64,000 bases of DNA from Clostridiales bacterium (GTDB taxonomy: Bacteria > Bacillota > Clostridia > Saccharofermentanales > Saccharofermentanaceae): assembly GCA_017451265.1 (NCBI GenBank), contig JAFSPU010000012.1, positions 348,445 through 412,444 of the forward strand, in the 5' to 3' direction. Position numbers and translations under genes: made by a program. Under the pieces are notes generated by a model. It saw only the letters and a list, made by a program, of their open reading frames with translations. It made no database searches and was not told where the DNA came from. Shown in pieces: positions 35,110 to 39,774 of the stretch; the stretch's first letter is position 1; every line of letters begins with the position of its first letter.

Positions 35110-37053
35110 ATGAACAGGATCACAAGAAAAACAGTATCAGCAATTCTCGCCGCGGGCCTCGTGCTCGCGGTGTTCTCGTTCGGCTTAAGCGGGATCGTTC
35201 TCGCAGACGCATCCGCCACGGTGGAATCCACCAACCCCTGGGGTGACGGCGGTCAGATTGTTCTGAATCTGTCCGGCTGCTCCGGCTACGGTGAGATCGA
35301 AGTCGTAGTAGAGTTCTCGGGCACGGTCTCATCCGCATCAGGCTGGGGCTTTGATTCCTATACGATCTCAGGCAGCCAGGTCACGGCTGTGGTTTCAGCT
35401 GCAGGCTCCAATGCATGGGCCTTTGACGGCAATGTCGGAATCCAGGTAACGGGCTCTAACATCACTTCGGCAACCCTCGTGTCCGTCACGGGATCGGGCA
35501 CGGCTTCTACAGCTACCGCTCCTTCCCAGACCAACGGCGGTGACGAAGGTCAGCCTTCGCAGGGAGGAACCCCCGTCGATTACAGCAGCATCGAGTTCGT
35601 CCAGGGCGATGACTGGCTCACGACTGACGGCAACCGCATCGTGGACCAGAACGGCACCGAGGTGTGGCTCACTGGCTGCAACTGGTTCGGCTACAACACG
35701 GGCAGCAATATCTTCGACGGCGTGTGGTCCTGCAACATGCGCGAGGCACTCGAGTCCATCGCGGACCACGGCTTCAACCTGCTTCGTATCCCGATGTCGG
35801 CGGAGCTTCTGCTGCAGTGGAGTAACGGCGAGTACCCCGAGGCGAATTACAATCACGCTTATAACCCCGAGCTCGAGTCCATGAACTCGCTCGAGATCTT
35901 TGACTACGCTCTTACTATCTGTGCTGCCAACGGCATCAAGGTCATGATCGACATCCACTCGCTCCCGACGGATGCGATGGGTCACAACCTGCCCCTGTGG
36001 TACACGGATACCATGACGGTAGACGACTTCTACGCGGCACTCGACTGGCTGTCCGCGCGCTATGCGAATAACGACACCATCATCGCTTACGACCTTAAGA
36101 ATGAGCCTCACGGCAAGCCTTCGGAGCCTGATCACGCGATCTGGAATGACTCCGAGGACGCGAATAACTGGAGATATGTAGCGCAGACTGCGGGCAACAT
36201 CATCCTCGACAACAACCCGCATGCACTTATCATGATCGAAGGCATCGAAATCTATCCTATCGATCCTTCTGCAAACAACTTTACTTCGACAAACAGTGAA
36301 GACTACTACTTCTCATGGTGGGGCGGCAACCTGCGCGGTGTCGCGGACTATCCCATCGACTTCGGCTCACCCGAGCGAAATGCTCAGATCGTGTACTCTC
36401 CTCACGACTACGGTCCTGCGGTCTATGAGCAGCCCTGGTTCGAGGGTGGATTCACATACGAGTCTCTATATGAAGATTACTGGCATGAGGCCTGGCTCTA
36501 CATCGATGAGGAGGAGATCGCTCCGCTTCTTATCGGCGAGTGGGGCGGCTTCATGAGCGGCGACAATCTGACATGGATGACTTACATGCGCCAGCTGATC
36601 GCGGAGTACCGCCTGAACCACACCTTCTGGTGCTTCAATGCCAACTCCGGTGACACCGGCGGACTAGTGCTCGACGACTTTGTAACCTGGGATGAGGATA
36701 AGTATGAGTTTGTCCGTGAAGTCCTCTGGCAGGATGCGGACGGCAACTTCATCGGCCTTGACCACGTCATTGCGCTCGGCGACAACGGCATCTGCTTAAG
36801 CGACCTCTCCGGCCTTGAGGCTGTGCCCGTGCTGAATGATACTGCTGCAGGTTCTTCGGAAGCGGTGGCTGCTTCCGGCGAGACTGTTGTTGCCGATGCT
36901 TCTGTACCTGCTGCTTCTCCTGAGGCCGGAACCGAGTCAGGTTTAGCCAAGGGCGTAAAGGTGTTCTTCTGCGTCTTGGGCGGCGTGCTTGTGGTGCTTG
37001 GCGGAGTACTCGCTTATGTGCTCGGAAAGAAGAGCGTAAAGAAGGAAAATTAA
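35110..37053 (+). CDS. Membrane-anchored GH5 cellulase-type glycoside hydrolase with N-terminal beta-sandwich module
   Basis: The 647-residue protein has a signal peptide (about 1-32), a beta-rich module (about 33-130) resembling cellulose-binding domains, a Ser/Thr/Gly linker (131-160) and a GH5 catalytic domain (about 165-560). The acid/base is Glu332 in YDLKNEPHG and the nucleophile is Glu477 in IGEWGG. A Pro/Ala/Ser-rich stretch leads to a C-terminal membrane segment (about 615-640) and a KKSVKKEN tail. It is therefore held at the cell surface by a single helix rather than a dockerin or sortase signal. The N-terminal module is related to that of the next gene. It should cleave beta-1,4-glucans, though GH5 also covers mannanases. 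Confidence 0.88.
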
Positions 37054-37181: not shown

Positions 37182-38573
37182 GTGACATCTGGATTTGTAT
37201 CAAGAGTACGTACATTATTTACTTTGGTTGTGGTGTGCGCAGTCTGTTTCCTTTATTCGGGAACAGTACTTGCTAATGCAAGCGTAACCAATACTGGTTC
37301 GCAGACATGGCCTAACGGCGGTCAGGCATGGGTCAACATGAGCGGCGTAACCGGCGGTGAGACACTCACTTTCGTAATACGTTATAACGGTGACCTCGAC
37401 TGGTACGGCGGCAGCCCTTCTGTTAGCGGAAACACCCTTACATACACAGTTACATTAAATGCATATGATTCTTATTACGGAGTAAGCCTTTACGGTAATT
37501 TCGATTCGATCACGGTAGTGAGCGCGTCTATCAGCGGAGGCTCAACACCTTCACCTTCACCTTCGCCCTCACCTTCACCTTCTCCGTCACCTTCACCTTC
37601 GCCTGCCCCCGCAGCACCTACGTCTGCGCCTGCGCCTGTGAATCCTGATCCGGTTAATCCTGATCCCGGTCCCGGAGGCGGAGGAGATGTACCTGCACCG
37701 GCACCTGATCCCGGTCCCGGCGGTGAGGTAGCTCCCGTAGTTAATCCTGATCCCGTTGAGCCTGCAGCGACCGAAGCTACAACAGCAGCTCCTGCACCTG
37801 CAGCTACAACAGCGGCAGCAGCTGCCGGCACCACTCCCGCACATCCTTCCCAGGACGATGACGATGATGCCCTGATTGGTGACGGCGAGGTTCAAAGACA
37901 GGATGGTGAGGAGACTACAGTCCCGATCGTTATCATGGATGCCAATGGTAATCTCATTACCGTAACTCCTACACCTACACCGTTCCCGCTTATGTCGGGC
38001 AACACCATCAGATTTAATGACGATGTGGCTTTCCCCTGGAAGCCTGTACTGATCGGTCTTATTGTCATCGCCGTTCTCGGAACAAGATATGCAATGCTTA
38101 AGGCCAGAGGCCTGCGCGGCGGTAACCTCGCTTTGGAGTTCGTTCCCGGTGTATCTGACATCGTGGATAAGGTTCAGAGAAGAGGCACCAAGATCGAGCA
38201 GAAGACTGAAACAGATAAGCACGATTATTCCAATTCGACAGCCGCACGTGCTGCCGAGGCTGCAAGAGAAGCACAGCAGGCAAGAGCTGAGTTTGCCAAG
38301 GCTCAGCAGGAGCGCATGATGGCAGCTTCCTCCACGCAGATCCAGGGCACAAGGGCTCCGGTCAAGAGACCTCCTTCAGCTAATTCTGCAAGGACTCCTT
38401 CCAGACCCGGTACGACCAGGACTTCTTCAAGCTCTGCGCCTCAGGGCATCAAGACTCAGGAAGGCTTCAAGTTCGTAGCTCCTGTTGCAAATCAGTTTGC
38501 CAAGGATGAGGCCGCTGAAGCAGCACCTTCACCGTTCAAGAAGATCGACGATCAGAACGGAGATAATAAGTAA
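37182..38573 (+). CDS. Surface protein with cellulose-binding-like module, PS/PNPDP linker, one membrane helix and cytosolic tail
   Basis: The 463-residue protein starts at GTG after AGGGGGG. It has a signal peptide (about 1-30) and a beta-sandwich module (about 31-125) that shares the W..GGQ..VN.SG pattern with the GH5 N-terminal module. A low-complexity linker of (PS)n repeats (about 126-145) and Pro/Asp/Ala-rich sequence (to about 230) follows, then a membrane helix at about 288-310. The remaining 150 residues are cytosolic and largely disordered, with an Ala/Glu/Gln helix (about 350-385), an APVKRPPSANS motif and a PSPFKKID end. There is no catalytic domain. It could hold or sense polysaccharide outside while interacting with cytosolic partners. 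Confidence 0.75.
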   Translation: MTSGFVSRVRTLFTLVVVCAVCFLYSGTVLANASVTNTGSQTWPNGGQAWVNMSGVTGGETLTFVIRYNGDLDWYGGSPSVSGNTLTYTVTLNAYDSYYGVSLYGNFDSITVVSASISGGSTPSPSPSPSPSPSPSPSPSPAPAAPTSAPAPVNPDPVNPDPGPGGGGDVPAPAPDPGPGGEVAPVVNPDPVEPAATEATTAAPAPAATTAAAAAGTTPAHPSQDDDDDALIGDGEVQRQDGEETTVPIVIMDANGNLITVTPTPTPFPLMSGNTIRFNDDVAFPWKPVLIGLIVIAVLGTRYAMLKARGLRGGNLALEFVPGVSDIVDKVQRRGTKIEQKTETDKHDYSNSTAARAAEAAREAQQARAEFAKAQQERMMAASSTQIQGTRAPVKRPPSANSARTPSRPGTTRTSSSSAPQGIKTQEGFKFVAPVANQFAKDEAAEAAPSPFKKIDDQNGDNK

Positions 38574-38782
38574 TGAGCGTTAAAGACTTATTGGCAAAGC
38601 TTACGGGTAAGACACCCGTAAGGAAGGCCGATGAGGCCGATAAACCGAAGGTCGTAAACGGCTATCTTCAGACATCTAATACAAGAGTAATAAGACCTGT
38701 CTATTCGAATACGAGGGCGGGTCGCATTGCGCAGGAAAAGAAAGCAAAAGAATTGTCTTCTGATGATGACGGGCAGTCTTAA
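38573..38782 (+). CDS. Small basic cytosolic protein of unknown function (69 aa)
   Basis: The start overlaps the preceding stop by one base (TAATG). The protein is rich in Lys, Arg and Ser/Thr, without membrane segments, with a predicted helix at the start (VKDLLAKLTGK) and an acidic DDDGQ end. I recognise no family. Its position between two proteins that share sequence motifs suggests it belongs to the same functional unit. Confidence 0.6.
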   Translation: MSVKDLLAKLTGKTPVRKADEADKPKVVNGYLQTSNTRVIRPVYSNTRAGRIAQEKKAKELSSDDDGQS

Positions 38783-38795
38783 AATGCGTTATAAT
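38766..38795 (+). promoter_or_regulatory. Possible internal promoter before the disordered SPF-motif protein
   Basis: ATGACG (38766-38771), an 18-base spacer and a perfect TATAAT (38790-38795) lie upstream of AGGAGGGG and the ATG at 38827. Confidence 0.45.
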
Positions 38796-38826
38796 TAATT
38801 GATAACATTTTGCAGGAGGGGTAGCT

Positions 38827-39774
38827 ATGTCATCGAACGAATCCACCGAAAGAAGATCGCCTTTTTCGAGGTCTCCTTTCAATAAAGGGCCTGCAGGTGA
38901 ATCACCGGCTCCCGCACGTTCCGTAACCCCCTCTGCTCCGCCGCCGTCAAGGCCCTCAGGAGGAAGACCTCCGAGCCCGCCGCGAGCATCCAAGGCAGCA
39001 GAAGCTTCCACAATGAACCGTCCTGACTCCACGAGCCTTAACGCTAATGCCAATGCTACGGTAGCAGCGCAGGCTTATGAGAAGAGCATGAAGGCAAGTA
39101 ACTATAACCCTGCCATTGCGAACGGTTTTATTCCTCCCGTACTTGAGAAGAAGGAAGACATTAAGACTGAGTCCCCCTTTAAGGCAGCTCCCAAGGAGCC
39201 CATCAAGCGCCCGAAGGGTGTTACTAATGCGGCGTTAAAAGAAGAGGCTGAGGAAGAGGCCCCTAAGAGCGAACCCGGTAACACCGGCCCCCGCATTGCG
39301 CAGTTTATCCCGATACCGGTAGTAGAGGCACCTAAGTCTCCTTTCGCACCCGTAGATAAGACTAAGACGGAGAACGGCCTTAAGGCTCCCATCAAGCGTC
39401 CGTCTTCAGCTTCCGTAAACCACGCTGAAGCTAAGAGACAGGAACAGGAGCTTAACAGGATCAGAGATGAGCTCGAGGCCATGGGCGGCGTTACTGCAAA
39501 GCCCAAGGAGGAAGAGCCTGTTGAAGAGCCCATAAAGCCCGCATCAGACAGGCCTTGGGATAAGACCTTCGTTCCGCTTGCTCCCGTGCCTTTCTTTGCA
39601 GAGGATCCTAACGAGAACAAGAGTCCCTTTGCGGCTCCCGTGCAGAAGACGGAAGAGCAGATAAAGAGGGAAGAGGCGGCAGCTCAGCGCGCTCTCGAGG
39701 AGAGCAGAACTGTAGGCCAGAAGAAGTCCAAGCTGGACAGGCTCATGGAAGAGCTTAACAAGCCCATTTTCTGA
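38827..39774 (+). CDS. Largely disordered cytosolic protein with repeated SPF and P[IV]KRP motifs (315 aa)
   Basis: The protein has no signal peptide or membrane segment. Residues 1-70 are Ser/Pro/Arg-rich. SPF occurs five times (starting at residues 11 and 16, and as ESPFKAAP, KSPFAPVD and KSPFAAPV). The motif PIKRP occurs twice (EPIKRPKG and APIKRPSSAS). The cytosolic tail of the 37182 protein has APVKRPPSANS and PSPFKKID, so both share short linear motifs. Two helical stretches (about 200-220 and 275-315) are charged. I infer binding to a common partner; no known family is recognised. Confidence 0.7.
   Translation: MSSNESTERRSPFSRSPFNKGPAGESPAPARSVTPSAPPPSRPSGGRPPSPPRASKAAEASTMNRPDSTSLNANANATVAAQAYEKSMKASNYNPAIANGFIPPVLEKKEDIKTESPFKAAPKEPIKRPKGVTNAALKEEAEEEAPKSEPGNTGPRIAQFIPIPVVEAPKSPFAPVDKTKTENGLKAPIKRPSSASVNHAEAKRQEQELNRIRDELEAMGGVTAKPKEEEPVEEPIKPASDRPWDKTFVPLAPVPFFAEDPNENKSPFAAPVQKTEEQIKREEAAAQRALEESRTVGQKKSKLDRLMEELNKPIF

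Follow-up and report, generated by a model that had tools for sequence, protein, structure and literature searches.

Conserved cytosolic motif boxes accompany a membrane-anchored cellulase in a genus of the Saccharofermentanaceae

The locus and its proteins

The DNA analyzed here, referred to throughout as the window, is a stretch of 64,000 nucleotides from a Clostridiales bacterium (assembly GCA_017451265.1, contig JAFSPU010000012.1, positions 348,445 to 412,444), and the subject is a gene cluster in which a membrane-anchored GH5 endocellulase is followed by a single-pass surface protein, a 69-residue protein and a 315-residue protein carrying an array of short motifs (Table 1). The source genome is 1.96 Mb and 70% complete; a member of its genus, here termed g1, is isolate RGIG8863, from water deer omasum. 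An earlier note, made from the sequence alone, had proposed a surface system with shared cytosolic motifs, and its three open reading frames (ORFs) were located where it had placed them, with the motifs as stated; it had left out the cellulase upstream, and an unlinked coiled-coil protein with the same box lay outside its view. The surface gene stop and the 69-residue gene start overlap (TAATG), and the end of the 315-residue gene lies 2 bases from a short-chain dehydrogenase (SDR) gene.

Hydropathy analysis revealed two hydrophobic stretches in the surface protein (19-residue peaks at residues 12 and 282), leaving a C-terminal tail of about 162 residues, and peaks at residues 12 and 620 in the GH5 protein; neither the 69- nor the 315-residue protein has a hydrophobic stretch. 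Given a signal peptide and one transmembrane segment, and given that pieces of the tail also occur as soluble proteins lacking any hydrophobic segment, the tails are predicted to be intracellular, and their composition suggests that they are disordered. None of the three proteins matches any Pfam family above cut-off, and the one NCBIfam match, to the surface protein, fell far under cut-off and was taken as chance, so that at these cut-offs the absence of a known domain reported earlier was borne out. A GGDEF protein is encoded on the opposite strand about 2.5 kb downstream of the locus (window:42299-43462).

Table 1. Features of the locus, in window coordinates
Feature	Position	Strand	Basis or remark
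Membrane-anchored GH5 endocellulase	35110..37053	+	Pfam Cellulase, PDB endocellulase E1, hydropathy; signal peptide, N-terminal binding-like domain, GH5, C-terminal transmembrane segment with short tail; likely client or partner
Surface protein	37182..38573	+	GTG start, 463 residues; signal peptide, binding-like domain, proline/threonine-rich linker, transmembrane segment, cytosolic motif tail
Extracellular domain of surface protein	37272..37544	+	34% identity to GH5 N-terminal domain
Transmembrane segment of surface protein	38025..38081	+	residues 282-300, hydropathy peak
KRP box core PVKRP, cytosolic tail of surface protein	38358..38372	+	
SPF motif, cytosolic tail of surface protein	38529..38537	+	
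69-residue cytosolic protein	38573..38782	+	bears NGYL box
NGYL box of 69-residue protein	38657..38710	+	NGYLQTSNTRVIRPVYSN
315-residue cytosolic protein	38827..39774	+	array of motif modules; disordered by composition
Module 1 of 315-residue protein	39172..39213	+	SPF and PIKRP
Module 2 of 315-residue protein	39295..39426	+	IAQFIPIPV, SPF and full KRP box GLKAPIKRPSSASVNHA
FVPLAPVPF and last SPF of 315-residue protein	39568..39630	+	FVPLAPVPF conserved
C-terminal segment of 315-residue protein	39721..39771	+	KKSKLDRLMEELNKPIF, partly conserved

The upstream enzyme covers profile positions 1-272 of 272 of PF00150 (Cellulase; E 2e-47), and its nearest solved structure in the PDB is endocellulase E1 (E 8.4e-55). 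The strings NEP and GEW, identified by eye in its translation, are presumably the sites of the two catalytic glutamates. The same GH5 is matched at E<=1e-60 in 96 of 113 genomes of the family. Together with the resemblance between its N-terminal domain and the outside domain of the surface protein, this anchored enzyme upholds the surface system that had been postulated. The outside domain appears at best weakly CBM2-like: the window's copy has no Pfam match at E<=1, none of the 29 outside domains scanned matched CBM_2, and hhalign gave a probability of 39.7 when the 29-domain profile was compared with five same-position domains from GH5 proteins of other genera, two of which were scanned with Pfam and both matched CBM_2. 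A PDB search with the outside domain returned an immunoglobulin chain first (E 0.011), and xylanase D chain 1e5b, which we take to be of CBM2 type, at E 0.045 behind other chains too. Position and partner suggest cellulose as its ligand. One GH5 from each of three other genera (L187, L188, L189) has an outside CBM2 or CBM2-like domain and a short tail. At the GH5 N-terminal position (window:35203-35508) there seems to have been a change of domain, with CBM2 recognized by Pfam in L185 and L189, from two other genera, and an unrecognized domain in g1.

Within the window, the surface tail contains APVKRPPSANS and PSPFKKID, and the 315-residue protein contains five SPF and two PIKRP. When the latter was shuffled 20,000 times, five SPF and two P[IV]KRP each arose in 0 shuffles, and of the shuffled tails 3.25% had one SPF and 0.02% one P[IV]KRP. 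The best 6-residue match between the two proteins (5 of 6) was equalled in 26 of 60 shuffles, and their local alignment score in 147 of 1000. The 69-residue protein has neither SPF nor KRP and bears a different conserved box, NGYL. The sharing of motifs between tail and 315-residue protein thus looks only suggestive within the window and, this internal match being weak, relatives were needed to decide; with conservation in relatives added, it appears convincing.

Conservation and rearrangement of the motif boxes

Comparison with relatives showed that the motifs belong to conserved modules, namely the KRP box (GLKAPIKRPxSASVNHA), the NGYL box (NGYLQxSNTxxIRPVYSN), SPF units and FNxAxAMKE. Exact DNA patterns of three boxes were run on the 113 family genomes, 83 of them g1, and KRPxSASVN was found in 44, NGYL in 67 and FNxAxAMKE in 37, all g1, with none of these patterns in the 30 non-g1 genomes; reversed patterns gave one match for KRPxSASVN and none for the other two. 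At the level of the order, NGYL occurs in 69 of 188 genomes, which is 69 of 85 g1 genomes and 0 of 103 others. One match (G051:C6) was rejected as chance, as it lies opposite other genes and reads NGYLKICNT; this genome has another, true one. In the matched DNA strings the box residues are constant while codons vary, and among eight aligned disordered proteins the window residue is kept in 6.50 of 8 rows at motif columns and 3.25 elsewhere, the motif columns having been picked by the analyst after viewing a three-sequence alignment. Of 74 g1 genomes bearing the GH5, 63 have NGYL, and in 57 of these it lies within 9 kb on the same contig; a motif protein was present at 29 of 30 GH5 loci, a biased count, as the loci were chosen by motif or gene matches, and 57 of 74 is the fairer figure. 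Both pattern counts and alignments show that the shared cytosolic motifs of the earlier note are conserved in relatives.

A search with the 315-residue protein matched 20 of 115 family genomes at E<=0.001, its own genome counted, all of them g1, and the neighborhoods of the other 19 were taken for comparison. In five of these (L031, L032, L037, L039, L040) a single protein of 755-1026 residues combines the outside part, the transmembrane segment, the NGYL box and KRP/SPF units, the start of the L032 protein being missing at a contig end; L031 has four consecutive, nearly identical KRP boxes. In L033-L036 the surface protein includes the NGYL box, with the disordered protein encoded apart, and L041 and L042 have not the disordered protein but a different, coiled-coil protein. 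Among closer relatives, the 69-residue gene is present in L024, L025, L026, L028 and L030 and absent at the locus in L027 and L029; the genome of L027 (G059) carries a 56-residue NGYL copy on another contig (hit G059:C40, a true protein). The expectation that the three genes would occur together was therefore correct for most of these loci, where the pieces are adjacent or fused, and failed for the 69-residue gene at two of them; likewise SPF and KRP motifs are kept in relatives, with L038 retaining SPF and having degenerate KRP and NGYL boxes. Because five relatives have the fused polypeptide, the three genes of the window look like one tail cut into parts, and the splitting, fusion and relocation of pieces between membrane and soluble proteins argue that modules, rather than particular chains, are what evolution keeps.

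The recurring gene order is Ddl, flavoprotein, deaminase, AMP-binding enzyme, GH5, surface protein, disordered protein and SDR, with the AMP-binding enzyme, GH5 and SDR named by Pfam and the others by eye. The SDR was considered as a partner in the system and rejected, as it stays with GH5 in G044 and G045 while the surface gene sits on another contig.

The modules are borne by several kinds of protein. Besides the surface proteins (up to 1,509 residues among those examined), the free disordered proteins and the small NGYL proteins, they occur in single-transmembrane proteins that have no outside domain and directly follow GH5 (L105, L106, L108, L110, L114, L115, L117, L119, L121), in a soluble coiled-coil protein with a KRP box, and in the GH5 itself, whose cytosolic end bears NGYL in G010, G028, G057, G062 and G078 (6 of the 72 rows listed, G057 twice) and a variant, NGYRQ, in G011 (L263). 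In the sister genus g5, both loci examined (L185, L186) have a GH5 with a long cytosolic tail, that of L185 containing KAPIKRPNMRPAA and NPFAPARKGPIKRPNLRPAA and that of L186 having no KRP box. The DNA pattern PIKRPN.RP was found in 13 of the 113 genomes, all g5. Of these, 11 carry it no more than 1 kb past the GH5 match, and the remaining two have no GH5 match at the cut-off.

Several further arrangements were seen among such carriers. L112:7289-11761 encodes three consecutive surface proteins with outside domains that all differ and NGYL-type tails, and surface proteins at L105:10338-14399 and L108:9544-13017 have a very long charged Ala/Glu coiled-coil-like stretch in the cytosolic tail, with extra boxes (SAFFxR, GIVRPSAI, APAMGxxxEGxRPxIMD) conserved by eye. 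In L199 and L200 (G035, G041), proteins with repeats resembling S-layer homology repeats, by eye, lie near the NGYL membrane protein. A pair resembling systems for ribosomally synthesized and post-translationally modified peptides, namely a small secreted-type peptide with VYGPP motifs and then a radical SAM protein (L105:14437-15897, L108, L259, L187:10519-11871), adjoins surface or tail genes in L105, L108 and L259 and GH5 in L187. Its radical SAM protein is similar to TIGR04133 (E 1.1e-79 in L105, under cut-off), and genes of like size and order are found in L106, L110, L119 and L121.

A coiled-coil protein with the same box

An alignment of the coiled-coil protein (A1) matched 97 of the 113 genomes at E<=1e-25, comprising 74 of 83 g1, 23 of 23 g5 and 0 of 7 g2-g4 genomes. 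With a broader alignment (A6, 18 rows) at E<=1e-5, 2 of the 16 negative genomes matched (G012, E 3.4e-9; G078, E 8.1e-6), both inside surface proteins by position. Of the A6 rows, 14 retain the KRP box. In the genome of the window, the coiled-coil copy has 424 residues and is on another contig, and its segment VGLKAPIRRPPSASINHA is identical at 14 of 18 positions to NGLKAPIKRPSSASVNHA of the disordered protein, the best of 60 shuffles reaching 10. There was no PDB match to the coiled-coil protein at E<=0.001.

From 15 coiled-coil rows a KRP-box model of 24 residues was made, which matched 54 of 848 ORFs at E<=1, and 1 reversed ORF (E 0.45). Its matches at E<=1e-4 numbered 42: 33 tail-type proteins and 9 coiled coils, the latter including some used to build the model. 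These 848 ORFs come from loci picked for motif or GH5 matches. An N-terminal coiled-coil model matched 43 ORFs and 2 reversed ones. Since the full coiled-coil model also matches 7 reversed coiled-coil proteins, conclusions rest on the short KRP and N-terminal models. In L204, L115 and L117 the similarity extends over a preceding helix-like stretch, ARERAxAAxxQxxxR. Between the surface tail and the coiled coil of the window's own genome, the alignment score was equalled in 465 of 1000 shuffles over the full length and in 15 of 1000 over the first 150 residues, and clear matches of tail to coiled coil appear to come from relatives only. The starts of the coiled-coil and 69-residue proteins and the ends of fused tails were examined for an amphipathic membrane helix, an idea that was rejected because hydrophobic moments did not exceed those of shuffles (shuffle fractions 0.08 to 0.87); of the 8 tests, only that on the end of the disordered protein stood out, at 0.024.

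Interpretation and alternatives

These findings can be read, tentatively and with a probability that we place somewhat under one half, as a membrane-anchored system for cellulose attachment and degradation whose parts are organized from inside the cell. Outside, there would be the GH5 endocellulase and at least one binding-domain protein on a proline/threonine-rich stalk; inside, disordered tails, fused or separate, would display repeated KRP boxes, NGYL boxes and SPF units. The motifs most likely bind a common cytosolic reader or one another, and the coiled-coil protein would bridge many copies, so that the cellulase and binding proteins become clustered under the membrane. In the simplest mechanism, these proteins would be gathered at a meeting point in the cytosol. 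The foremost candidate for the bridge is the coiled-coil protein; because it bears the KRP box as clients do, it may itself be a further client of an unseen reader. A more specific version, in which the tails, free motif proteins and coiled coil form a network that gathers cellulases and binding proteins into patches, as a bacterial counterpart of the focal adhesion and a cellulosome built from inside, seems to us rather doubtful. What would be new is the combination of parts, with protein families that have no library match above cut-off, and this depends on the function proposed.

Several observations weigh against organization from inside. No folded reader of the motifs was found. G035, G041 and G056 retain the NGYL membrane protein and have no GH5 match at E<=1e-60, so the tie to this enzyme is not strict, and the genus-wise co-occurrence amounts to few evolutionary events. 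The near-complete genomes G012, G048 and G051 have no free coiled-coil protein by either the A1 or the A6 model, and the KRP box is missing from three g5 rows and L248 in A6, as well as from L245, a further g5 copy. The outside domain is only weakly like a carbohydrate-binding module, as described above (hhalign 39.7; the window's domain without a Pfam match at E<=1), and a single GH5 was examined from each of g2, g3 and g4. In G059 (L258:7090-9254), moreover, the 56-residue NGYL protein ends 1 base before an OmpR-type response regulator, which is followed by a histidine kinase; this was the sole place found where a motif piece adjoins a two-component system.

The last observation favors the idea of the earlier note, sensing: binding outside would change how the tail motifs are exposed, and a reader in the cytosol would relay this to a cell process. 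A single-pass layout with a binding-like domain outside and a motif tail inside would suit such sensing, as would GGDEF proteins near the locus in the window and, in relatives, near L025, L026, L030, L038, L039 and L040, the one in L039 having a part like a sugar-binding protein. On account of the G059 pair and the GGDEF neighbors, sensing was given slightly more weight than at first and organization from inside slightly less. Sensing is nevertheless unlikely in our estimation, since the three proteins themselves have no signalling domain in Pfam or NCBIfam, the two-component link comes from one metagenome contig of a single genome, it is not obvious how a conformational change could pass along a disordered tail that follows one transmembrane segment, and the free tail copies in the cytosol suit a scaffold better than a receptor. 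The proposal that came with the earlier note is thus supported in part: the surface system, the lack of a known domain and the conserved shared motifs stand.

The occurrence of motifs in membrane proteins with differing outside domains, in single-transmembrane proteins without a binding domain and in GH5 would also be expected if a shared chaperone, or a factor for export, membrane insertion or turnover, recognized them in surface proteins and soluble clients alike; many copies per chain (four KRP boxes in L031) and soluble proteins made of motifs only exceed what a sorting tag needs, which makes this quite improbable. It is more improbable still that there is no common reader, and that low-complexity repeat modules spread by recombination among loci and persist with no shared function. 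The Ala/Pro/Lys-rich composition, the degenerate boxes of L038, and the plausibility of shuffling, given the fusion, splitting and relocation seen, speak for such a process, but box residues are kept with varied codons, conservation falls in islands, 14 of the 18 coiled-coil proteins in A6 retain the KRP box, and the short models match almost nothing among reversed sequences.

Organization from inside would make the linkage of tails and soluble proteins directly testable, as defined short peptides of about 18 residues each could serve as baits and the coiled-coil protein, present in most genomes of the genus, would be the first candidate partner.

Comparison with known systems

In the open-licence literature, no relevant paper was found on cytoplasmic tails in cellulose binding, on cytoplasmic domains of membrane-anchored cellulases, or on linear motifs with cellulosomes. 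A close likeness in layout is the attachment organelle of Mycoplasma pneumoniae, where surface adhesins are joined to a cytosolic core with coiled-coil proteins; an excerpt of PMC4959525 describes a P1 adhesin array with an internal core, and in HMW1 an acidic proline-rich region together with coiled coils. As portrayed in the same excerpt (PMC4959525), M. pneumoniae is a gliding pathogen that binds sialylated oligosaccharides; the window encodes a cellulase and linear-motif tails. No relation in sequence to the Mycoplasma system came to light, the surface, disordered and coiled-coil proteins having no Pfam family above cut-off, in a comparison that included no direct alignment to Mycoplasma proteins.

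The RsgI-type anti-sigma factors of cellulolytic clostridia are similarly single-pass membrane proteins with a carbohydrate-binding part outside. These polysaccharide-sensing factors have an N-inside topology, whereas that of the surface protein is predicted to be the opposite, with an N-terminal hydrophobic signal and a C-terminal tail; Pfam identified no anti-sigma domain in it, nor any sigma factor in the scan of 8 window proteins. Endocellulase E1 is matched by the window GH5 over the catalytic domain, and differs in that some relatives of this GH5 have cytosolic tails with motif boxes; to our knowledge the architecture of E1 includes no such tail.

Like the cellulosome, the proposed system would gather cellulases and binding modules on the surface of the cell. 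Cellulosome assembly is extracellular and proceeds through cohesin-dockerin pairing on scaffoldin; no cohesin or dockerin was among the Pfam matches of 8 window proteins and 8 proteins of relatives, and any assembly in the window system would be intracellular. If the proposal is correct, a group of gut-associated bacteria organizes a cellulose-degrading surface by an intracellular motif code, in a manner unlike that of the cellulosome.

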